From contig JASMFB010000006.1 in the NCBI GenBank assembly GCA_030751995.1, positions 1 to 35,963 of the forward strand: a DNA stretch of 35,963 nucleotides, written 5' to 3'. The position numbers and the translations under genes are program-made. The DNA is from Candidatus Thalassarchaeaceae archaeon (GTDB lineage Archaea > Thermoplasmatota > Poseidoniia > Poseidoniales > Thalassarchaeaceae). Shown here piece by piece: positions 4,091 through 28,981 of this stretch (its first letter is position 1; every line of letters begins with the position of its first letter). Under the pieces are notes generated by a model. The model had not been told where the DNA came from. It was given only the letters and a program-made list of their open reading frames with translations, and did not search any database.

Positions 4091-4414
4091 ATGGCTTCCG
4101 AGGACCCCATGTTAACTCGTCTGCTCACAAATCTCGACGACATCGAAGCCTGCCTACTCTCTGGAGAAGGGCATGTGATGGGTGGCGAAGGAAAAGGAAA
4201 CGTTGCTCTTTACCATCAGGCCATGCGGATGGCAACAACGCTCCAGATCGGTCGCGTTGAAGAGATGTGGTTTGAAGGTGAGTCGACAATGGTCGCAACC
4301 ACAATTCGAGGTGGGGCAAGCCTCTGGTTGACGAGTGATGTATTGCCCATTGGTCGATTGAGCCACGAGGCTCGGACAATACGACCTGTTATAGAAGATT
4401 TAATCGAGGTGTGA
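4091..4414 (+). CDS. Small roadblock/LC7-like protein
   Basis: A 107-residue cytosolic protein with no signal or membrane segment. The pattern of a first helix (LTRLLTNLDDIEACLL), a strand-rich middle (MWFEGESTMVATTIRGGASLWL) and a last helix (SHEARTIRPVIEDLI) matches the roadblock/LC7 fold. That fold, as in MglB, dimerises and serves as a scaffold or GTPase partner. This is fold-pattern recognition by eye, not a proven match. The ATG at 4091 is chosen; an ATG at 4109 and a TTG at 4070 are in frame and possible. The stop is two bases before the next start, whose ribosome-binding site lies inside this gene's last codons. It is therefore co-translated with the large coiled-coil protein, which has a similar domain. 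Confidence 0.6.
   Translation: MASEDPMLTRLLTNLDDIEACLLSGEGHVMGGEGKGNVALYHQAMRMATTLQIGRVEEMWFEGESTMVATTIRGGASLWLTSDVLPIGRLSHEARTIRPVIEDLIEV
4406..4411 (+). promoter_or_regulatory. Ribosome-binding site deciding the start at 4417
   Basis: GAGGTG with a 5-base spacer to the ATG at 4417. The ORF track begins at GTG 4411, but that codon starts on the last base of the ribosome-binding site, so ATG 4417 is the likelier start. Confidence 0.75.
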
Positions 4415-4416
4415 AA

Positions 4417-7400
4417 ATGTTCAATCTACCCCCTGGAAATGCTGTTGATTCTGAAGCCGATTTGAGTGTTGGACAAAATCAGATGCCCTTTGAAACCGGG
4501 GCAATCTCCCACTACAAGCCAAGGGCAAAAACGGCATGTGCTCATCGATTGATTCACGGTGGTCGTGTTGTTGGTTGGTTAGCCGAATCAGAAGCCAAGC
4601 AAACATTTGTCTCCGGGGAAGCTGCAAAAGATCGTCTGTTGGAATTGTCTGATTCACACGATCTCAATGCGCGAGGAGCCGTTTGGACCGTTGCGCAATT
4701 CACTGAGGTGGCCCGACGAATTCCAGAGGCATTTTCCGATCCGTCTGATGTAGCTTCCTTGCTTGCCCAAGGTGCAGCCGCACTGCCCATTGAAACCACT
4801 GATCTTGCATTGCTCGTCGATCGGTTGACAGAATCCGAGGAAGTCATCGGTGCCCTGGCCTTTGAAGAGGGCGTTGTGATCCACTCAAGCGGAGAACTGC
4901 CTTCAACTCCAGACGATCTTGCTACACTGGGTCAAGAACACCTAAGTGGGATATCATCAAAATTCTCTCAAGAAGAATCTCTCTCTGCCAATCTCCGATT
5001 GGAAGGTGGACAATTGATGCTAACTGAAGCAGGTCAAGCATCTGTTGCCATTTGGTGCCGACATGGTGCTGATGCGCACGCGGCACTCTCCAATGCCGCA
5101 AGTTTGGTTGGTTCAATGGATGAAGGAGAGATGGTTGACAACGATGAACTCCCTGAAGGGTTCATCACAAAGGAGACAAAATCTGGAATTGACCAACTCA
5201 TTTCTCATCTTAGAATGGCATACGAAGACCGACTCACCGGTTATCTACAATCAATGTCCGAATCGGCGGAGCCCATCTCAATCATGCTCGTGGATGGAGT
5301 TCCAACCGGATTACGGGAATCGGACGGTGCATCACTCCCGGATGCGGTTCATACTATGACCACGTCCTCACGCCGCCTCCAATCACATCGACTTGAGAGG
5401 AGAGCACGACTTGGCCTATCTGGCTCCACAGTAGAGGAATTCTCACTGGCCCATCTTACCGATGCCATCGCTGGATGTAGGACACGTTCTGATGATCGGA
5501 AGAGATTGGTGACTGGAAGACTGGATGCGCTCTTCGGATTTGATTTGGGCCTAGAGTCTATGGAATCTGGACGCTCGACATGGAAGATGCTCGAAAGTGT
5601 CGGAGGCACGGCCACATTGATGCCAGTCTCCAGTACAAAGGTACTCACTCCAGCTGGAGGAGAAATCAAAAAGCGGCTTGAGCAATTGGAACACACGCAG
5701 ATTTCCTTAGAACGAGAGAAGGGGCGCCTTGAGCGGGAAGTTGCAGATGCACGTGCATCCAGAGATGAATCTAGAGACATGATGCATGATCTTGAAGCCG
5801 CACTGGGTGAAGCACGGGATGGAAGAAGTACACTTCACAGAGAAGTTGACGATTTGTCAGCCAAGGTTCGTAGTGCAGAGGCAGAAACTGATGAGGCGAC
5901 CTCGCTATCTACTCGTCTATCAAAGCGTGTTTCTGAGTTAGAACACATGGTAGGGAAACGTGCAGAAGAATTGGCCAGTGCATTGGGCGAATTTGAATCA
6001 CGCGAAGCGCTCCTCACAGACCTACGCGAACTGTCTACGGAAGAAGCTACGACTAAATCTGAACTCAGTGCTGCTGAAACGCGTCTGGATGAAGTACGAA
6101 AATCACTGGACCATGACGAGCGGCTACAGCGGGTCCTCACAGAACAAGTCAATGCGCAGCGTGATCGTCATCGGACCGGTCAGGGCGAATTAGACGAAGT
6201 TGAGCGGAGAATAGAGAGTCAACGTGCTGAACTTGTTGAACTAGAGGCTGAAGCACATGCGCATCGCCGACTGATGGAAGAGGAGCGCGGACGAATCCTC
6301 GATTCTGAACGAAAATCAACCATCATGCAATCTGAATTGCGTGAAATGATGGAAGAACGCCGACTATTGCTCCGTGAACTCGGAGATCTCGATGCACGCA
6401 AGGCACAATCAGAAACTGAATTGAGAATGCTGCTTGAACAAGCAGAGGATATCCAAGAAGCGCACGAGATGGCATTGATTGATTTGCAAGAGGCAGACCG
6501 AATTCGTGCACGTTTGGCGGAAGAGCCGTTAGCACAGGCTCTGCTTGGTGATGAACGCGGCCTCTCTAGTTTGGAACCCGTGCTTGATCGCATGGCAAAT
6601 GCACGAAGTCGGGGTTACAGCATCGTCCTACTAGACCGGGCTGTTGAACGGGCATTATCTATCATTCAACATAGTGTAGATGAGGTAGCAAAAACGCCAC
6701 GGCATCTCCTATCACTCGAAGTCATGGATCTTCTGGAAAGGCAAGCACCCGAAACCGCGTCAACGGTTCGAGGCTTGACAAGATGGTCTGTGCAATCCCG
6801 TCTTGAGCATCAACTTGCAGAAACCGTTCAACACGTTGTCATTGATCTTGAAGGGTTGCTGGAGGAGTATGAGCGGTCAGTCACAATGCTTGCGCAACTA
6901 CAGGATGTGTTGCGCGGCCTAGTCGATTTGGGCTTGCCCGCTGAAGATGTCAAACCCCTGGAGCGCTTCAGCCACATGCCAGAAGCTCTGCCATACATTT
7001 CGGTTGAAGTTCGACGTCTGATTCAGCGCTCGCTGGACGATATCTATCTCGATGCGGATCGGAGAACGGCTGGAGATGCTGTTGGATTGGCCGAAACCGT
7101 GGAGGTGTTGGAATCTCTACTTCGCAGACTCGATGTGGCTGGCTTGAGTGGGGAAGATCCTACTGGGGCCCTTTGGGCATTCCAACGAAGCGGTAGTTTA
7201 CCTTTCGAAATCGACGGATTGGCCCGTCATGAGCGACCCGAAATCAACAATGAAGCTGTTCGGCACATGAATCCTGTCGACGATGTGGCTGTAGTCACTT
7301 CTACGGCCACTGATTCACCACCGGTTGTCGCCCCGAGTGCCCCCGCTGCAGCACCAACACCCGAGGCGACCGCTGCACCTGCATCCAATTCAACTTGGCA

Positions 7401-7656
7401 ACCAATTGAGGAGGCGGCTGAGACAGATGGGGTCGATATTTCAACCCGAATTTCAGCGGGCCTAACACCCGCTGATGTACCGGGTGATGCTGATGAAGCT
7501 TCATTGATGGCTAATATCGATGTTGCACTTTCTGAGATTGATTCAGCCGCAGATGTTCGTGAAGGAACCGAAAATGGAGTTCCACCTCCCGCTGATCCAG
7601 TTCAACGAGATGCGATGGATGACTTAGAGCGAGAACTATCTGACCTCGATATATGA
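4417..7656 (+). CDS. Large roadblock-like and coiled-coil protein
   Basis: An unrecognised 1079-residue cytosolic protein. Residues about 130-230 (from LALLVDRLTESEEVIGAL) look like a second roadblock/LC7 domain. Residues about 415-700 form a long charged coiled coil rich in Glu/Arg/Leu heptads. A helical globular region follows (about 700-950), then a Pro/Ala-rich linker from about residue 961 and an acidic tail ending ERELSDLDI. There is no Walker A motif, so despite the shape it is not an SMC or Rad50 ATPase. It is tightly coupled to the small roadblock-like gene before it and the two-helix membrane protein after it. The set suggests a scaffold that could pair roadblock domains and be tethered at the membrane, for example in polarity, division or cell shape. 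This role is inference; no function is known to me. Confidence 0.75.
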   Translation: MFNLPPGNAVDSEADLSVGQNQMPFETGAISHYKPRAKTACAHRLIHGGRVVGWLAESEAKQTFVSGEAAKDRLLELSDSHDLNARGAVWTVAQFTEVARRIPEAFSDPSDVASLLAQGAAALPIETTDLALLVDRLTESEEVIGALAFEEGVVIHSSGELPSTPDDLATLGQEHLSGISSKFSQEESLSANLRLEGGQLMLTEAGQASVAIWCRHGADAHAALSNAASLVGSMDEGEMVDNDELPEGFITKETKSGIDQLISHLRMAYEDRLTGYLQSMSESAEPISIMLVDGVPTGLRESDGASLPDAVHTMTTSSRRLQSHRLERRARLGLSGSTVEEFSLAHLTDAIAGCRTRSDDRKRLVTGRLDALFGFDLGLESMESGRSTWKMLESVGGTATLMPVSSTKVLTPAGGEIKKRLEQLEHTQISLEREKGRLEREVADARASRDESRDMMHDLEAALGEARDGRSTLHREVDDLSAKVRSAEAETDEATSLSTRLSKRVSELEHMVGKRAEELASALGEFESREALLTDLRELSTEEATTKSELSAAETRLDEVRKSLDHDERLQRVLTEQVNAQRDRHRTGQGELDEVERRIESQRAELVELEAEAHAHRRLMEEERGRILDSERKSTIMQSELREMMEERRLLLRELGDLDARKAQSETELRMLLEQAEDIQEAHEMALIDLQEADRIRARLAEEPLAQALLGDERGLSSLEPVLDRMANARSRGYSIVLLDRAVERALSIIQHSVDEVAKTPRHLLSLEVMDLLERQAPETASTVRGLTRWSVQSRLEHQLAETVQHVVIDLEGLLEEYERSVTMLAQLQDVLRGLVDLGLPAEDVKPLERFSHMPEALPYISVEVRRLIQRSLDDIYLDADRRTAGDAVGLAETVEVLESLLRRLDVAGLSGEDPTGALWAFQRSGSLPFEIDGLARHERPEINNEAVRHMNPVDDVAVVTSTATDSPPVVAPSAPAAAPTPEATAAPASNSTWQPIEEAAETDGVDISTRISAGLTPADVPGDADEASLMANIDVALSEIDSAADVREGTENGVPPPADPVQRDAMDDLERELSDLDI

Positions 7657-16526: not shown

Positions 16527-18530
16527 TCAATCCCAATTGGTTTGATCTGTATCAAAATCAAAGGTACAACTGCCACCACATGTATCGTTGATGATTCCAG
16601 TCAGAAGGAAGTCCTCAACCATTGCATTGACTTGGATGATGGGTGCAATCTCGTTGTGAGCCTTTCCAGCATCACCTATTGGTGGTGCTGCGTTTGTATC
16701 GGGCATGGCCTCGTAACTTCCATCCCAATAGACGATGGCAGAACCGGTGATTGGACCGTCTGCCACATCGATTCCGTAAGGTGACATCATCGACCCACTG
16801 AGCATTGGAATCCCGGCGGTTCTGGCGGCTCTGTCGGAAGAGAGGCCCGGCACCTGAGCATCGTTCACAGAAATAGTGGAAAGGAAGTTGAATGGTTGAA
16901 TCTGGTCACCGTAGCCTGTCTCTGCGAAGCGCAGCCAAGTCTCAGAATCCGAGGCATCCCACATCTGTTGACATATTCCAATCAACAACGCGCGATCGTT
17001 GCGTTGCGGGTACGCCTGAGGCAGGATGAATCCATCGGAGAATGTCGCATAGTTCGTACTGCGTTCGATGAATGTAGAGAATCCAGAGCCGCCGACCCAA
17101 AGGGCCGCACGGTCAATATCTGGAGAGAATCCTGTGATGCTAGCACCATAGATGCCACCCAATGAATAGCCCATGTAATGCACATCCGAACTGTCGACCA
17201 GATTCGTTCCATTGTAATGCAATTCTGCCAAATCGCTGCACACGCCCTTGAACGTTCGCGCGAGTGCCATTTGATTGACGAGCATCTGCTGTAGACGGTC
17301 CGATTGATGCTCAAAATACTCAGGATTGGCAAGACCCATGAAGACAGTGTCCATGTCAGAGCCCGACCAACCGTAGATGTCGGTGGCCACCATCGCGACC
17401 TCGAATTCTTGCATCCAGCCGAGAGACCAACTCGAGACGGCTGAACGACCATCACCTAGGAAGCCGTGACCGAAGACGACCAGAGGGCCACTCTCATTGT
17501 TGTCAGCTAGAACTTGGGGGATGACGAGCGTAAATGGAATCTCTGCATTTTCGACGAATTGTGGAGTTCCGTTAGCATCTCTACTTATTAGACTGGGTGG
17601 ATTTTGCCATTCGAGATACTGCGGCACAGTGTAGGTACCCTTGATGAGGCGGAAATCATTGTCAAGATCACCGAGCCAATCGGTTTCGACGCTTTCGACG
17701 TTGCAAGCAATTCCTCCTGCACCAAGGCGGTCCAATGCATCCGTGCGCATAGAAATCATTGGGCCAACAATAGAGTCTAGAGAAGCCGTGTGGAAGTTCC
17801 ATGCATCCTTGAGGTTCTCTACATCATGGCCGGATTCATTGAGAGCTTGAATCAGTGAAGCCATCGATGCTTGTCGGGCCTCGACATCTGGAGCATCGGT
17901 TTGGTGACCATCGAGAATCGCCTGGAATGCGGCTGAGGGCGTAACACCCAATCCTGAGATACCGATTCCATACGCAGTGTTGGGCTCTAGGGAACGCAAT
18001 GTTCGGATGAATACGATTGTGGCTGATTCATCATCTGCTCTGGCATCGATCTCGACCCAATGGGCAACCTTCTCTCCCGTGTCCAGATTGAGAAGTGTGG
18101 TCGCGTGTCCAGTTTCCATGGAAAGGCCAATCGAATATTGGTCGGCGACACCTGTGAGATTGGGCAGAGTGCTGAATGCCGTCATAATCTGTGTCGAGGG
18201 ACTCATCCCATCGAGACGATTGAGGGATTCAATTTGGACGCTTTCACCTGAATTGGAGAGAGAACCAGAGACGGGTAAAGTGTTCTCAGCATAGTTCACC
18301 CGAAGCCCAGTCACCGTCGTATTGTCCTCAATTAGGAATGCATCAGAGGGAAATGGTAGCATGCAGTGAAGTGGATTGAGATTGTCACAACCATCGGTAT
18401 GAGGGACAGCAACGAGTTCAATCTTATTCTCTTCAGCCTCGTTTTCAATCATCTCTAATTCAGATGATTCCAAACATCCTGGAAGAATGAGTATAGATAC
18501 GAGAATAAGGGCAATCAATCTGCGATTCAT
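16527..18530 (-). CDS. Secreted lipoprotein, alpha/beta-hydrolase (lipase-like)
   Basis: A 667-residue exported protein. The N-terminus MNRRLIALILVSILILPGC is a lipoprotein signal with the lipobox Cys at about residue 19, so it is probably lipid-anchored outside. An N-terminal region with LHCMLPFPSDAFL resembles the start of large extracellular lipases of bacteria. The hydrolase core follows: VFGHGFLG (oxyanion region) and the nucleophile elbow GYSLGG. A CGGSC pair lies near the C-terminus. Start: ATG 18530, not the GTG at 18563; a TATA-like TTTGATAATGG centred near 18556 would give a leaderless transcript beginning at this ATG. A fatty-ester or polymer substrate is plausible but unproven. 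It converges on the aldehyde dehydrogenase gene with a 6-base gap. Confidence 0.8.
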   Translation of the reverse strand: MNRRLIALILVSILILPGCLESSELEMIENEAEENKIELVAVPHTDGCDNLNPLHCMLPFPSDAFLIEDNTTVTGLRVNYAENTLPVSGSLSNSGESVQIESLNRLDGMSPSTQIMTAFSTLPNLTGVADQYSIGLSMETGHATTLLNLDTGEKVAHWVEIDARADDESATIVFIRTLRSLEPNTAYGIGISGLGVTPSAAFQAILDGHQTDAPDVEARQASMASLIQALNESGHDVENLKDAWNFHTASLDSIVGPMISMRTDALDRLGAGGIACNVESVETDWLGDLDNDFRLIKGTYTVPQYLEWQNPPSLISRDANGTPQFVENAEIPFTLVIPQVLADNNESGPLVVFGHGFLGDGRSAVSSWSLGWMQEFEVAMVATDIYGWSGSDMDTVFMGLANPEYFEHQSDRLQQMLVNQMALARTFKGVCSDLAELHYNGTNLVDSSDVHYMGYSLGGIYGASITGFSPDIDRAALWVGGSGFSTFIERSTNYATFSDGFILPQAYPQRNDRALLIGICQQMWDASDSETWLRFAETGYGDQIQPFNFLSTISVNDAQVPGLSSDRAARTAGIPMLSGSMMSPYGIDVADGPITGSAIVYWDGSYEAMPDTNAAPPIGDAGKAHNEIAPIIQVNAMVEDFLLTGIINDTCGGSCTFDFDTDQTNWD

Positions 18531-18580
18531 GGCTTTGCGAAAGGTCGCGCCATTATCAAACACACCCGATGTAGTTCAGG

Positions 18581-22352: not shown

Positions 22353-22622
22353 TCACAGGTGGTCAACGCGCTGCTTCTTGACGTTGGCTTTCTTGATCAT
22401 GCCCGCCTTCTTCAGCCATGCCGGCGCTGAGTCCGGTGGTTTCACCATTTGTGTCCAACCCTTGAAGACGTGAACACGCTTGGTTCCACGCTCTCTCAGG
22501 TGTATGTCGGTCGCGCCACGAGTGGCTGCCTTCAAAGCCGCGCCACGGGGCTGGCGGCTTGCGAAGACCTGGCTTGTGTCTTTTCCGCCCTTCATCAGGA
22601 CGAAGTATTTCTTTTCTCCCAT
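22353..22622 (-). CDS. MC1-family chromatin protein
   Basis: A small basic DNA-binding and DNA-bending protein that compacts the chromosome in many euryarchaea, first known from Methanosarcina. The 89-residue frame matches the family almost end to end: KYFVLMKGG, then RQPRGAALKAATRG, LRERGTKRVHVFKGW, and a basic tail (KKANVKKQRVDHL). ATG 22622 has GAGGTG at 22630-22635 with a 7-base spacer. A possible TATA stretch (GTATAGCG, minus) lies near 22687. The strong terminator downstream fits a highly expressed single gene. This is a good marker for the archaeal origin of the window. Confidence 0.93.
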   Translation of the reverse strand: MGEKKYFVLMKGGKDTSQVFASRQPRGAALKAATRGATDIHLRERGTKRVHVFKGWTQMVKPPDSAPAWLKKAGMIKKANVKKQRVDHL

Positions 22623-23082: not shown

Positions 23083-26000
23083 TTATTCTTCCTCGTTAAT
23101 GATATCAAGAATCTCCGCATCGGTGCTCTGTTTTACATTCTCTGTACGGTGGATATCAATCTGTTCTTGAGTCCAACCAGCAGCAAGCAATTGTTCATCA
23201 CTCCATGCTTCCGTTTCCCGAGTTTGTAATCCAGCCATTTCAGTGAGGATATCGTCTGAGATATCTTCATCTCTCTTGGCCCAGACATCGTCAGGCAATT
23301 CATCGTCTTCCTCAATGGGCATATCTTCCCGACGGCCAATCAGTATCGATGTGAGTGCGATTAGCAATAGGAGAGCAACAGAAATTCCAATAATCGTGAT
23401 TGTCGATGATGGGTTGTCCACACCTTGCTGAGTGGTGTTTTCTTCATTCGAAGTATCCGATGGAGCCTCGCGCGCGCGTAGGAGAACTGATTCTGATACA
23501 GAGAGTGATGTCTGATCGAGGCAAGCGAAGTAGAGTGTGTGATTTGCTTCTGAGCGACCGGGTGGAATCCACGATTGAGACCACAAACCATCTGCATCGG
23601 GACGATAAATCTCTGAAAACAATGTTATCTCATCTTCATCTTTCAACAAAATCGAGCATTCCATGTTCTCCATTCCATCGACATCAGATATTTCGACAAT
23701 CAATGTTGTCTCATTTCCGGAAATCAATTCAGTGGGCATGGCTGAGAAATCCAATTCTGGCTCAGAACCTCTCAATTCAAAACTCAATGTTTCTGAAAGC
23801 CCGGTTATTCCATCGATGTCTCTGAGATTCACGACCAATTCTACAGTTCCCAATGACCAAGTCAAGAGATATTCCGAATTGAGATTCATTCGATAATATT
23901 GGGTGTGTTGTCCAGTTCCAGGGGCACAGGGTGCAGGTGGAACCCCCTGTTCAAAGAAAATTGAACTAAATACACTAGATGTAGGGCCAGCAGGACCCAA
24001 GCGAATACCTGCGTACTGTATGGGGCGGCCTCCTGTAATTCCCACCCAAATATCCGTACCTTCAGCACCCCGATTTATTGTGTCAACCAACATGTCATTC
24101 ACACAAAGTTTGGGTGTTGAGATGGTTGGAGGTTTTAGGAAAACTGGGCGGGTCCAAGTCCACTGCATTTCAGCCCAAATGCCGTCGGTAATTTGTGTCG
24201 TAATGGTAGCATCTCCAGATTCTAGTCCTGGTGGTGCGGTGGCCAAATCGCCTTCAAGTGATTGAATTCCGGCACCAGGCCATTCAATGATTGTCGATAT
24301 GGGATAATCGATATCTGGGTCATCTTCGTCGATGATGCGGACCTCAACAAAATCATCTGCACCATCAAGATACGACTGATCTGAGATAAAGAATTCAGCA
24401 CTTGGGGCGAGGTCAATGGGCGTCAGGCTGCGATTCGCCCATTCGGTTCCATCTGCATGAAGACTGATTGCAACAGGGTCTAGCGAACCACCTGCTTCTG
24501 GATTCCAAGAAGTCTGGTAACAGGTTTGACTGCCGCTGGTGCTGGATACAGAAGGGGTTGGCAATTCATCCCCATCGACTCGGATAGATGGGGCCTCAGT
24601 CTCGTTGTTGTGGTCCAAATCAATCACACATGCAGTCATCGCGTGTTCCCTTCCACGAACCCACCCTGATGTACCATGAATGGGGGGATCTATACCAAGC
24701 CAAGGCGCCAAGTCAGCCCCTTCGACATGAACACCATACCATGTTGCACTCGCATCTGTGATATTGAATGCGGCATCCCAAAAAGACTCATCCTGTAACT
24801 CCTGTGCATCCTGAACAACCCAATAGATATCCACACTGTCGAGTGGGGCATCAGTGGGAAGGGAGATTGCTGCGGTCCAAATCACTCCATCATTCTGTGA
24901 AGTGGCAGTGATGGGGATGTATGTCGGATTGCTAGAATTGTTGTAACGCCAAGACAAGGTTGCTCCAGCGATACCGAAATCATCTGTGACTGTGATTCGG
25001 CAAATCACGACTCCTCCACGTGTTGCCGTCGTCGTTGAACATGTCAATTCATCAATGATTGGCGGTGAGTTGATTTCGATGTTCAACAACGCAAGATTGT
25101 TGTCAACAACGCGTTCAGGATGTGCGTCTCCTGGAATCCAACGAACTAGGAATTCGACAAACCCAGTTCGAACCGGAGTGACGTTGATGGGTAATATGAG
25201 ACGACTCCCTGCATCATTACCCCCTGGAATGGTCATCGAATGATTGGCCAAGAGAAGATTGTTCTGTCGATCCCTCACTTCAAGGAAGCCGGTAGCTATG
25301 CCAGGGGCGAGGTTCTCCAAGAGTACCTCTAGCGTTCCGTTTTCCCCAATGGACAAACGTTCGGAGGTGCGGACTTCGGAGACGTTGACATCGTGCAGAC
25401 GATCGCCGTATGCAGCCATCTTTGGGTCTCCAACCACGGTACCCATCCAAGAGAGGAGAACGTTTGATGCCGCATAACATTCGACCATCGTGTAGCCATC
25501 TGCATAACACGAGAACAATTGTTCTGGATTCGAAATTGCAGAGAGATAGGGTTCGTAGACATATCCTTTGACACCGGAGACGCCGTCATCGAGCAAATCG
25601 GCAACTAAACTCTGACCATAGCTCGAGTTGAGCACGAATGTGCGGCCACCTGTACTCACGGCTGTCTCTGCAATACTGCCATCTAACCAAGTGAAGTGAG
25701 GTCGAATTGGATATAGTTTCAGCGTATCAAAGAAAATAGAGCCATTGTATGTTCCATCGGTGAATTCGGCAACATGTCGAACGGCGAAACTTGTTGCAGC
25801 CGCATCGGGACGGAATCGGAGTTGACGGTTCTGCCAATCATCAGAGAAAGAGTGATCATCGGATCTGTTCAGAGATAAGGAATTGCCATTCGCATCGAAT
25901 GCTTCAACTTCTAGCCACCAATCGCCTTCAACCCAGCCCTCTCTCATTGAATATCCATCAAGAACCCAAGCATGTCCTTCTAGGTCCGTATCGATGTCAA

Positions 26001-28212
26001 AGACTTGTTCAACATAGGCAATGGAGTTGTTCGTTGTATTGAATGTAGGGCAAATCCAGACGATTTCATCGTGGACATCTGCAACCTCGTCCTCGGACAA
26101 GGCAGCATCCCAGATTTGGACCTCATCGATGACACCTGTGAAATGTGTGCTACCCGCACGATTGACACCGAATTTGTAGATTTCAATACTGTTCACAGTA
26201 CCATTTGGGACGGTTTGATTGAGAATCTCCACGCCATTCAGATAGAGTGTGACTGTGTCGTTGAGGAAGGTGGCCACGAGATGTTGCCAAACCGTTGGAT
26301 CAACCGTTCCGAAATTGTATGAGGTGTTGTGATACAATTCCCAGTCTCCCGGGCTGCCACCTCCAGTCATTATTTGGAAAGACTCGTCGTCTCCAGCAAC
26401 ATCATTCACGGCAATCGCTGAAGAATATCGGGGTTGGCCACTGTGATTAGCTTGAACCCAGAGACTGACGGTGAAATCAGTCACGGTGTCTGCAACGTCG
26501 ACTCGGGCTTCATCATCAACACCATCAAAGAAAGCGCAGTTACCCAAGACACAAGTTCGCCATTGGTTGCCATTGGTCCCAGTGAAATTGAGGTGGGCGG
26601 TACCCACAGAATCGTTGGCGACATCGCCACTGTTCTCATTGAATTCCCAATGGTGAATGAGATCAACTTCCCGAACGGGGTGACTGCTTCCACGTGTCAA
26701 AACATTGGTTGGGACAGTTTGTTTGGACAAGCCAGGACCTTCCCATTTGAGTTCCAATCCAGCATATCCACCATGCTCAAAGAATTCGGTACGTAGTTCG
26801 TGTTCTCCAGCATCTAGCCACGCCGTACCTGAACGCTCTTGCATGGCATGGTGTCCCTGATTGTCGACGATTTCAACATCATCAATCCACAATTTAGAGC
26901 CATCATCACTTCGCAAGTAAAACGTCCAATTACCAGCGGTAGGAATGTGAATAATGCCTGTGTGTCTCGCACTCCAATAATCGAGGAATCTACTGTCTAG
27001 ACCAGCCCAAGCATTTTGGGTAGATGGCCAATCTAGATTCGGTTCGTGGCGAACAAAGTCTGGAGTTCTTCCAGAGAGGTTTACCATTGTGCTGGAGTTG
27101 TAGGTGATTCCATTGTTATCGAAATATTCAGCGAGCAGTCCATTGGTTGTCGCTGCATCATTGGCTCCACATGGCGCATCCTCAAGACGTCCTTCCATCG
27201 CTGCATTTCCATTTCGTTTTGTCTCGGTCTGACGGGCCCACCACCATTGTTCACCTGGTGAAAGCGCTGGGCCAACTCCGTCCCAATATCGGGCACCAGT
27301 CGGCCAACTGCCATCGGATGTGTCATATCCAGAATTGGACAATTCATTGTCATCCCAAGAACCATCATTGCTGCCCCAGGCGGAATACATCGAGAGATTC
27401 TCCATGTTGGTGACATAGGTTCCATTCTGATTGAAGTGAACGGGGAAACCCATGTTCGTCAGCGTTTCATTCGTGGTGTAGAGTAAGTCATTCCACCACT
27501 TGTACCCAGATCCATTTCGATTCGTTGCCAAGTCGAGAACAGTTAGTCCGTGCTCCCCCAAGCTGTTGTTGGTCTTGGCAATCAAACCCAAGGCTGCCTC
27601 AACATCATACCCAGTTAACCGAGTGACCAAGTAGTACCCTTGTTCGTCTCTCTGGAATTCTTTCATCTCATTACCGGCAGCAGGCCCGTAGTTTGACTCG
27701 ACATACCAATCCGCGAAGATAGCCGAGGCATAGGGTCCGTCGATTAGGGCCAATTCTGAATCAAGGGAAGCACGGGAATTGGTTCCTCCGTTGACTCGAA
27801 GCGGAACTCCCTTCGTAGTGACGAGAACATTGAGTTCGGTCAGATTTCGCTCAGATATCATCTGTGAGATTGGATTTGCGAAGTATGTAGTGAATTGATT
27901 GGAATCGATGGTTTCACCTGTAGGTGTGCTCTCATTGGTCAATAGCAAGACACGTTCTGGAGGAATATTACGGGCCAGAGCAAAGGCAGTACCGATGGTT
28001 CGACTCACCTCGCTTTGATTGTTGATGATGATGGCGACATCACTGTAATCGGCGAAGGTCTGATGAGAAAACGGTTCCAGTACTGCCACATCCCTGAACG
28101 GGGCCTCCTCCCACGCGTCCGCGTGGGCCCTCGCTTCCTCTGGAAGCGATACTGCGGCCCAACTCTGCAGTGAGAGCAGAAGGACGAGAGTGATGGCTAA
28201 GCGAGAGCGCAC
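23083..28212 (-). CDS. Giant anchored surface protein: TIGR03790-like, PA14, LamG
   Basis: A 1709-residue exported protein. Order: signal peptide (1 to about 20); a TIGR03790-like domain (about 50-350, with VAIIINNQSEVSRTIG and ARNIPPERVL); a PA14 domain (about 357-490, NGLLAEYFDN to LELKWEGPG with FYLRSDDGSKLWIDD); a LamG/concanavalin-like domain (about 520-710, HHWEFNENSG to VIDEVQIWD); a CARDB-like beta domain (about 940-1050); further beta domains; one transmembrane helix (about 1602-1625); and an 85-residue acidic cytoplasmic tail with WSDEQLLAAGWTQEQID. PA14 and LamG domains commonly bind sugars, so polymer or cell attachment is likely. Many Asn-X-Ser/Thr sites suggest glycosylation. 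Start: GTG 28212 with GGTGA six bases upstream. No enzyme active site is recognised. Confidence 0.85.
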   Translation of the reverse strand: MRSRLAITLVLLLSLQSWAAVSLPEEARAHADAWEEAPFRDVAVLEPFSHQTFADYSDVAIIINNQSEVSRTIGTAFALARNIPPERVLLLTNESTPTGETIDSNQFTTYFANPISQMISERNLTELNVLVTTKGVPLRVNGGTNSRASLDSELALIDGPYASAIFADWYVESNYGPAAGNEMKEFQRDEQGYYLVTRLTGYDVEAALGLIAKTNNSLGEHGLTVLDLATNRNGSGYKWWNDLLYTTNETLTNMGFPVHFNQNGTYVTNMENLSMYSAWGSNDGSWDDNELSNSGYDTSDGSWPTGARYWDGVGPALSPGEQWWWARQTETKRNGNAAMEGRLEDAPCGANDAATTNGLLAEYFDNNGITYNSSTMVNLSGRTPDFVRHEPNLDWPSTQNAWAGLDSRFLDYWSARHTGIIHIPTAGNWTFYLRSDDGSKLWIDDVEIVDNQGHHAMQERSGTAWLDAGEHELRTEFFEHGGYAGLELKWEGPGLSKQTVPTNVLTRGSSHPVREVDLIHHWEFNENSGDVANDSVGTAHLNFTGTNGNQWRTCVLGNCAFFDGVDDEARVDVADTVTDFTVSLWVQANHSGQPRYSSAIAVNDVAGDDESFQIMTGGGSPGDWELYHNTSYNFGTVDPTVWQHLVATFLNDTVTLYLNGVEILNQTVPNGTVNSIEIYKFGVNRAGSTHFTGVIDEVQIWDAALSEDEVADVHDEIVWICPTFNTTNNSIAYVEQVFDIDTDLEGHAWVLDGYSMREGWVEGDWWLEVEAFDANGNSLSLNRSDDHSFSDDWQNRQLRFRPDAAATSFAVRHVAEFTDGTYNGSIFFDTLKLYPIRPHFTWLDGSIAETAVSTGGRTFVLNSSYGQSLVADLLDDGVSGVKGYVYEPYLSAISNPEQLFSCYADGYTMVECYAASNVLLSWMGTVVGDPKMAAYGDRLHDVNVSEVRTSERLSIGENGTLEVLLENLAPGIATGFLEVRDRQNNLLLANHSMTIPGGNDAGSRLILPINVTPVRTGFVEFLVRWIPGDAHPERVVDNNLALLNIEINSPPIIDELTCSTTTATRGGVVICRITVTDDFGIAGATLSWRYNNSSNPTYIPITATSQNDGVIWTAAISLPTDAPLDSVDIYWVVQDAQELQDESFWDAAFNITDASATWYGVHVEGADLAPWLGIDPPIHGTSGWVRGREHAMTACVIDLDHNNETEAPSIRVDGDELPTPSVSSTSGSQTCYQTSWNPEAGGSLDPVAISLHADGTEWANRSLTPIDLAPSAEFFISDQSYLDGADDFVEVRIIDEDDPDIDYPISTIIEWPGAGIQSLEGDLATAPPGLESGDATITTQITDGIWAEMQWTWTRPVFLKPPTISTPKLCVNDMLVDTINRGAEGTDIWVGITGGRPIQYAGIRLGPAGPTSSVFSSIFFEQGVPPAPCAPGTGQHTQYYRMNLNSEYLLTWSLGTVELVVNLRDIDGITGLSETLSFELRGSEPELDFSAMPTELISGNETTLIVEISDVDGMENMECSILLKDEDEITLFSEIYRPDADGLWSQSWIPPGRSEANHTLYFACLDQTSLSVSESVLLRAREAPSDTSNEENTTQQGVDNPSSTITIIGISVALLLLIALTSILIGRREDMPIEEDDELPDDVWAKRDEDISDDILTEMAGLQTRETEAWSDEQLLAAGWTQEQIDIHRTENVKQSTDAEILDIINEEE

Positions 28213-28279: not shown

Positions 28280-28342
28280 TAGGGTGAAAATGAGGCGTTA
28301 TTGGCGATGGGCATAAATCCCACCGGCCCCCCCTGTCAATGT

Positions 28343-28981
28343 ATGTCCGACGTAATCATCGCTAGGGAATGCCGTCATTCCATGTTGAGAGTGATTGCAG
28401 GGGACCTAACTCGATACGAAGCTCAGGTCGCAGTCACGTGTGCCAGCAATCGTCTTGCTGGACGCGAAGGATTGGATGCTAAGATGCACACTGCAGCAGG
28501 TGAAGAATTGCGCCAGACTTGTGTGGAAATAGGGAAAGTGCAGCGTGCGCAGAACCTGCAACCTTGTCCCGTGGGAACTGCAGTGACAACCTCTGCCTTT
28601 GATCTGCCTCAGGAACATTTGATTCATGTCGTGGGCCCAGATTGTCGCCGACCCAGCCAGGATGAAGGACGTCGAGAACTCATTGTCAAAGCCTACGAAG
28701 CAATGTTTGCGGAAGTGGCAGCATTGGGTGGTGTAGAAACGATTGTTTGCCCACCACTTTCCATGGGCATCTATGCTTATCCTCATCGCGAAGGTGCGCG
28801 AATGACGATGGAGATTCTACTCGGGTGGCTCGATGCTGAAGAGAAACCTGGCGTGGGTGATTTTGTTCTCTTAGTGAACGATGAAAATTTTGTCAAAAAT
28901 CTGAAAACGGTCTACCGCGAATCTGAAGACCAATTTCCAGGCGTGGATTGTACGCGGCAATTCCGCAAGCGACGCTTCTGA
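28343..28981 (+). CDS. Macro-domain protein
   Basis: A macro domain binds ADP-ribose or related nucleotides; some members remove ADP-ribose from proteins or nucleic acids or dephosphorylate ADP-ribose 1''-phosphate. The domain starts at LRVIAGDLTRYEAQVAVTCASN and keeps VVGPDCRR-type middle and CPPLSMGIYAYP, the usual ribose/phosphate loop (G-I-Y-A-Y-P resembling GIYGYP). From ATG 28343 it is 212 residues. The track's TTG 28301 start is less likely, because a TATA-like CATAAATCC at 28311-28319 fits a near-leaderless start at 28343; ATG 28382 is also possible. The stop is followed one base later by tRNA-Gly(CCC), so both probably share a transcript. That context allows, but does not prove, a role in RNA end metabolism. 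Confidence 0.85.
   Translation: MSDVIIARECRHSMLRVIAGDLTRYEAQVAVTCASNRLAGREGLDAKMHTAAGEELRQTCVEIGKVQRAQNLQPCPVGTAVTTSAFDLPQEHLIHVVGPDCRRPSQDEGRRELIVKAYEAMFAEVAALGGVETIVCPPLSMGIYAYPHREGARMTMEILLGWLDAEEKPGVGDFVLLVNDENFVKNLKTVYRESEDQFPGVDCTRQFRKRRF

Follow-up and report, generated by a model that had tools for sequence, protein, structure and literature searches.

Many otherwise unrelated giant surface proteins of the archaeal order Poseidoniales carry the same kind of short, tryptophan-containing module near a terminus that faces the cytosol. Here we describe this module, type A, in the tail of a 1709-residue protein of a Candidatus Thalassarchaeaceae archaeon (assembly GCA_030751995.1), encoded in the first 35,963 nucleotides of contig JASMFB010000006.1, the whole stretch analysed and hereafter the window. 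Type A recurs on many membrane proteins, is restricted to the order, is exchanged among orthologues and is similar in profile to three sister types, B, C and D. We give about even chances to the proposal that it is one form of a family of short tryptophan-anchored helical hairpins, with the core GW[ST]x[ED]Q[ILWY], that would act as docking tags.

Among planktonic archaea, those of Marine Group II are the most abundant in surface waters, and they are without cultured representatives, as passages of PMC6461757 set out; their contact with particles and polymers is therefore known solely from gene lists. Other passages of the same paper, which names Ca. Poseidoniales, give thrombospondin and flotillin genes as evidence of adhesion; term searches within it did not find the tail element. 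At the level of titles and abstract openings, no description of the motif was found in the open-access literature; an earlier one is possible. That unrelated giant surface proteins of this group have the same inner tryptophan tag suggests one inner partner that handles or anchors them all. A cytosolic tag would provide a sequence handle for listing, in any genome of the order, the surface proteins that are anchored, as well as a bait with which to fish for a partner organizing them. It is also an unusual prokaryotic case of an element common to unrelated surface proteins lying inside the cell, not outside.

The window protein and its outer domains

The gene lies on the minus strand of the window and encodes the following features.

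23083..28212 (-), whole coding sequence with GTG start, type I secreted single-pass membrane protein, 1709 aa
28153..28212 (-), signal peptide MRSRLAITLVLLLSLQSWAA, residues 1 to about 20, from direct sequence reading
27364..28041 (-), TIGR03790 domain, piece 1, residues 58-283, profile positions 2-227 (NCBIfam)
26713..26985 (-), PA14 domain, residues 410-500, nested within TIGR03790 (Pfam)
26080..26490 (-), LamG/ConA-like lectin domain, residues 575-711, nested within TIGR03790 (Pfam)
25447..25710 (-), TIGR03790 domain, piece 2, residues 835-922, profile positions 232-316 (profile match)
23338..23400 (-), transmembrane helix, residues about 1605-1625, followed by GRR (transmembrane prediction)
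23086..23334 (-), acidic cytosolic tail, residues 1627-1709 (83 aa), with 28 D/E and 7 K/R
23146..23205 (-), type A tail module WSDEQLLAAGWTQEQIDIHR, two-helix hairpin (recurrence, AlphaFold2)

The open reading frame, profiles and transmembrane prediction agree with a preliminary description of this DNA, which had read a 1709-residue protein with TIGR03790, PA14 and LamG domains, one helix and an acidic tail holding a motif. The tail is acidic as described there but is 83 rather than 85 residues long, and the CARDB-like domain also proposed was not recovered, with no Pfam match at E ≤ 1 in the window protein (CARDB, PF07705, was found in locus L072). Three domain families scored well above their cut-offs in the window protein: TIGR03790 over two stretches (134.8 bits against 67, E = 4e-39; NCBIfam), PA14 (PF07691; 62.5 against a Pfam gathering threshold of 24 bits, E = 5e-17) and Laminin_G_3 (PF13385; 72.5 against 27.6 bits, E = 5e-20). 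Its PA14 domain also matches solved PA14 chains. The two TIGR03790 pieces together span positions 2-316 of 316, minus a short gap, and because the profile range of the second continues that of the first, PA14 and LamG sit between pieces of one domain; the window protein thus matches both pieces of the family model, but its domain is interrupted. The two-piece match was found in nearly all 34 carriers among 60 genomes sampled from the order. There appears to be one copy of the TIGR03790 protein per genome, and the sampled genera g7, g8, g9, g10, g12, g14 and g15 yielded none. By eye, we suspect a likeness of TIGR03790 to gingipain-type peptidases.

Orthologues L088, L108 and L136 are of similar length (1708-1731 aa), and a hydrophobic N terminus was scored in the latter two. 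N-glycosylation sequons number 35 in the ectodomain, against 15.3 ± 3.6 in shuffled sequences, and none in the tail, which supports the assignment of the two regions to the outside and inside of the cell. AlphaFold2 modelling of the ectodomain from four sequences gave a mean pLDDT of 30.5.

The gene is flanked by those of a chromosomal protein MC1 (22353-22622, minus strand) and a macro-domain protein (28301-28981, plus strand), neither with an evident link to it. Elsewhere in the window, open reading frames of 1081 and 678 aa (4411-7656, plus strand, and 16527-18563, minus strand) have no Pfam match at E ≤ 1e-5. A PADLOC search for defence systems returned no match.

The tail motif and its predicted hairpin

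The motif of the window tail, WSDEQLLAAGWTQEQID, is encoded at 23155-23205 on the minus strand. Modelled by AlphaFold2 together with 30 related tails, it is predicted to form two helices with block-mean pLDDT of 76-90, the long extension of the second helix past the motif being of low confidence; outside the motif, pLDDT falls to about 53-62 over most of the tail, with 73 just after the motif. The ordered tail envisaged in the preliminary description is therefore retained at the motif and abandoned for most of the remainder. Neither the motif profile nor the tail matched any solved structure above chance, the best match to the motif being an 11-residue GWTxEQI stretch of RNA polymerase beta (E = 0.28).

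Constraint on the motif is stronger than on the linker preceding it: between the window protein and orthologue L136, motif codons differ by five synonymous changes and one nonsynonymous change, against four and ten, respectively, in the linker, the counts being small. A degenerate DNA pattern written for the motif matched the window once and 100 shuffles of it not at all.

Recurrence across the order

Type A is present on three further membrane proteins of the same genome. Two other open reading frames match the motif at E ≤ 8e-6, each encoding a transmembrane helix and a tail with the motif at its end, and the fourth copy in the genome is on a 1284-aa protein; a variant, GWSPQQVQESLDAGWTLEQLREKYESEQ, ends an unrelated protein. 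As the genome is 71% complete, the number of copies per proteome is a minimum. Same-genus relatives retain type A, among them orthologues of the window protein, so the motif is neither absent elsewhere nor unconserved, the outcome that the preliminary description had named as telling against it.

With a profile of 12 sequences, type A was detected in 42 of 116 genomes of the order, whereas a sample of the phylum outside the order yielded only two marginal matches (E of about 0.009). Within the order, E-values reach about 1e-15 per genome on unrelated proteins; most members of the family with reduced genomes lack type A. Found order-wide at the cytosolic end of many unrelated membrane proteins, the motif lends strong support to the earlier suggestion that it is the mark of a class of anchored proteins within the group.

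Scanning one genome per species from about 85,000 species with the degenerate DNA pattern gave at least 80 loci. All but two of the 80 listed are archaeal, labelled Poseidoniales, Thalassarchaeaceae, Poseidoniaceae, MGII or unspecified Euryarchaeota. Beyond the loci listed, rare occurrences in other groups are possible. The first exception, L129, bears the label Deltaproteobacteria AH-558-G13, and 4.9 kb of it align at 87% identity with L134, a Euryarchaeota contig that encodes the same module-bearing protein; judged by this identity, L129 is probably a contaminated or mislabelled assembly, which is likelier than transfer. In the second, L151 (Granulosicoccaceae), the motif of a short protein directly follows a signal-peptide-like segment, and the match is probably a coincidence.

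Given a short motif in an acidic tail, one might ask whether a low-complexity sequence has come to resemble it by chance or drift. This explanation is hardly credible: it is contradicted by the order-wide recurrence, and the result with shuffled sequences, the E-values on unrelated proteins and the constraint on the motif codons relative to the linker all stand against it.

Position, sidedness and carriers

Sixty-eight of the 80 listed loci were fully readable, and in every one type A adjoins a transmembrane helix, following it in 57 loci and preceding one, at the N terminus, in 11. Positive flanking charges lie on the side of the module in 65 of the 68, tie in 3 and contradict this placement in none; type A is thus cytosolic in every locus where the flanking charges are decisive. 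The window motif, like that of all 68 loci, fits the core beside a transmembrane helix, on the positive side and near a terminus. The ectodomains of type A carriers fall into at least nine BLAST clusters. Locus L162 has two copies in tandem, and in L081, a relative of a 1842-aa protein, module and EF-hand have changed places. Use at both termini, the nine ectodomain clusters, the tandem and the reversal together indicate a discrete mobile module.

A median of 8 residues separates type A from the terminus. Such near-terminal placement, together with flexible linkers, is what one might expect of a turnover or quality-control tag, an exposed terminal hairpin by which a protease or chaperone system would recognise the secreted giant proteins it surveys. 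We consider this distinctly improbable in view of the N-terminal copies and of the 9 of 58 C-terminal loci in which the module lies 60-81 residues short of the end.

N-terminal use was seen only in a type II collagen-repeat family (Pfam Collagen and DUF7151; L075, 2363-4501, minus strand, and also L048, L049, L053, L054, L061 and others), whose members start with the module M-WTDEQL..GWT.EQI. Several tails contain further segments. In a 1284-aa CARDB protein (L072, 5236-9084, minus strand), type A precedes a zinc-finger-like segment at the C terminus (Pfam Zf_2nd_IFT121), and a related protein from genus g11 (L082, 1990-6051, plus strand) ends in a different Cys-rich finger. Other cytosolic tails, read by eye, have a SAP-like end (L241), Trp-rich WW-like ends DGVWWWQDPNDSSWWYKDANGEI (L238 and L239) or EF-hand-like segments (L237 and L140). 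These SAP-like, WW-like and EF-hand-like tails suggest a wider set of exchangeable tail modules. At L071, the gene downstream of that for a 426-aa type A protein (past 4908, plus strand) encodes a product with a SAP-like start and a transmembrane helix, as read from L002, and is a candidate functional neighbour.

Sister types and exchange among orthologues

Three further terminal modules have the core GW[ST]x[ED]Q in common with type A. Type B reads PGWTxxxIQxYLxQGWTxDQLxxYYxEQ and is carried by proteins of about 1640 aa; type D reads IPEGWTxEQYxxWLxGPxPEGWTxEQWxxF. Type C (GLPxGWTMEQWxHYGQQYL) was found in 24 of 24 genomes from both families sampled, with 3-11 matches each at E ≤ 0.1; its GW lies 19-33 residues from the C terminus in 29 of 29 loci read, with a transmembrane helix detected in 27 of these. 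Pairwise hhalign probabilities among types A-D are 76-96%, and for all six pairs none of 100 column shuffles reached the observed score; the likeness could nevertheless reflect convergence.

The types replace one another on orthologous proteins. The 1842-aa protein has an EF-hand and type A in the genus of the window but type C in Poseidoniaceae. Among 20 orthologues of the window protein from other genera, 15 carry type D (all 15 in f2, the second family, which we read as Poseidoniaceae) and 5 have no recognisable module (genera g11, g13 and g17, and one g5 genome). The motif is accordingly not tied to the window protein, whose orthologues outside the genus have a different related module or none, and the existence of module-less orthologues indicates that the module is dispensable for it.

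This exchange bears on inward signalling, in which the tail would inform a cytosolic effector that the ectodomain has bound a ligand. The preliminary description had suggested such a role, for which we obtained no positive support in the window protein: no signalling domain was detected on it with Pfam or NCBIfam, and the ectodomains of type A carriers are unrelated. The EF-hand-like, SAP-like or zinc-finger segments beside the module in some related tails would suit signalling, but a module that occurs with nine or more ectodomain clusters, that stands at either terminus and that orthologues exchange or lose is unlike a dedicated receptor, and we regard this role as improbable.

Proposed docking of a cytosolic partner

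Unrelated ectodomains with a common inner element, at either terminus and on a flexible linker, are most simply accounted for by a common cytosolic partner, and we infer docking of such a partner as the best-fitting explanation. Counting against it are the orthologues with no module, the absence of type A from most family members with reduced genomes, and the chance that types A-D are convergent. Many unrelated giant surface proteins of Poseidoniales have modules at the end facing the cytosol, on flexible acidic or Pro-rich linkers, and each module would be a tag read by one or a few common putative partners. A partner of this kind, perhaps a cortical scaffold or sorting factor, would position, cluster or retain the surface proteins, while the ectodomain of the window protein, with PA14 and LamG nested in TIGR03790, would act outside the cell, probably by binding glycans or particles. 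More tentatively, and with some doubt, we suggest a dedicated Poseidoniales tail code, in which the related Trp-hairpin types A-D are exchanged between giant surface proteins in the course of evolution and recognised by at least one cytosolic adaptor, through which the surface proteome is sorted or anchored.

Like LPXTG, PEP-CTERM and PGF-CTERM, the module is a short terminal element common to otherwise unrelated surface proteins of one lineage, and by analogy with such tags a shared terminal element on unrelated proteins suggests a common handling factor. Those tags lie on the outer side, just before the transmembrane helix, and are processed by sortases or exosortase-type enzymes; the GWTxEQ module, in contrast, lies beyond the helix, in the cytosol, and is sometimes N-terminal.

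Possible self-association and known hairpin domains

The main rival to docking is self-association, by which a miniature SAM-like or SHOCT-like hairpin would pair with those of neighbouring tails, giving clustering without an adaptor. SAM domains often self-associate. Twenty-two of 30 type A tails match part of SAM_SMF (PF25317), and tandem copies of the module are known. Single modules nevertheless score 20-23 bits, below the cut-off of 27, and cover only about positions 25-54 of 65, and the window tail scores 13.6 bits. Coverage reaches position 64 in L014 and a tandem copy; the tandem pair attains 40.9 bits, only as the sum of two stretches. A full SAM domain was rejected on the basis of this partial, sub-cut-off match, which takes in less than half of the 65 positions; the modules also differ from the SAM domain of SMF/DprA in sitting on membrane proteins rather than on DprA. 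No Pfam or NCBIfam family covers the module, this part of the DprA SAM model being the nearest, below its cut-off. A 20-residue hairpin is, moreover, small for a stable dimer, and the oligomer role proposed for SHOCT found no support in experiment (PMC3581485). Self-association is for these reasons unlikely, and docking of a cytosolic partner remains our preferred reading.

Of the classes described, SHOCT comes closest; it is a short terminal domain of two helices whose function is unknown and has been proposed to be localisation (PMC3581485). SHOCT (PF09851) and the module resemble each other in length (about 30 aa), two helices, a conserved turn glycine, terminal position and occurrence on many unrelated proteins, and the tail module is likewise a short two-helix hairpin near a terminus by AlphaFold2 and locus positions. 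They differ in that the tail module has the signature GWTxEQ and is found in one order only. Membership of SHOCT was rejected: PF09851 matched no module tested at E ≤ 10 and nothing above its cut-off in 20 relatives, and hhalign against a SHOCT-like segment of an MGII ion channel gave a probability of 1.3%. A likeness to SHOCT below the cut-off is seen in MIERLERLADMRRDGWLTATEFHDAK, a C-terminal segment of an ion-channel-like protein (L249; G000:C90, 8063-8137).
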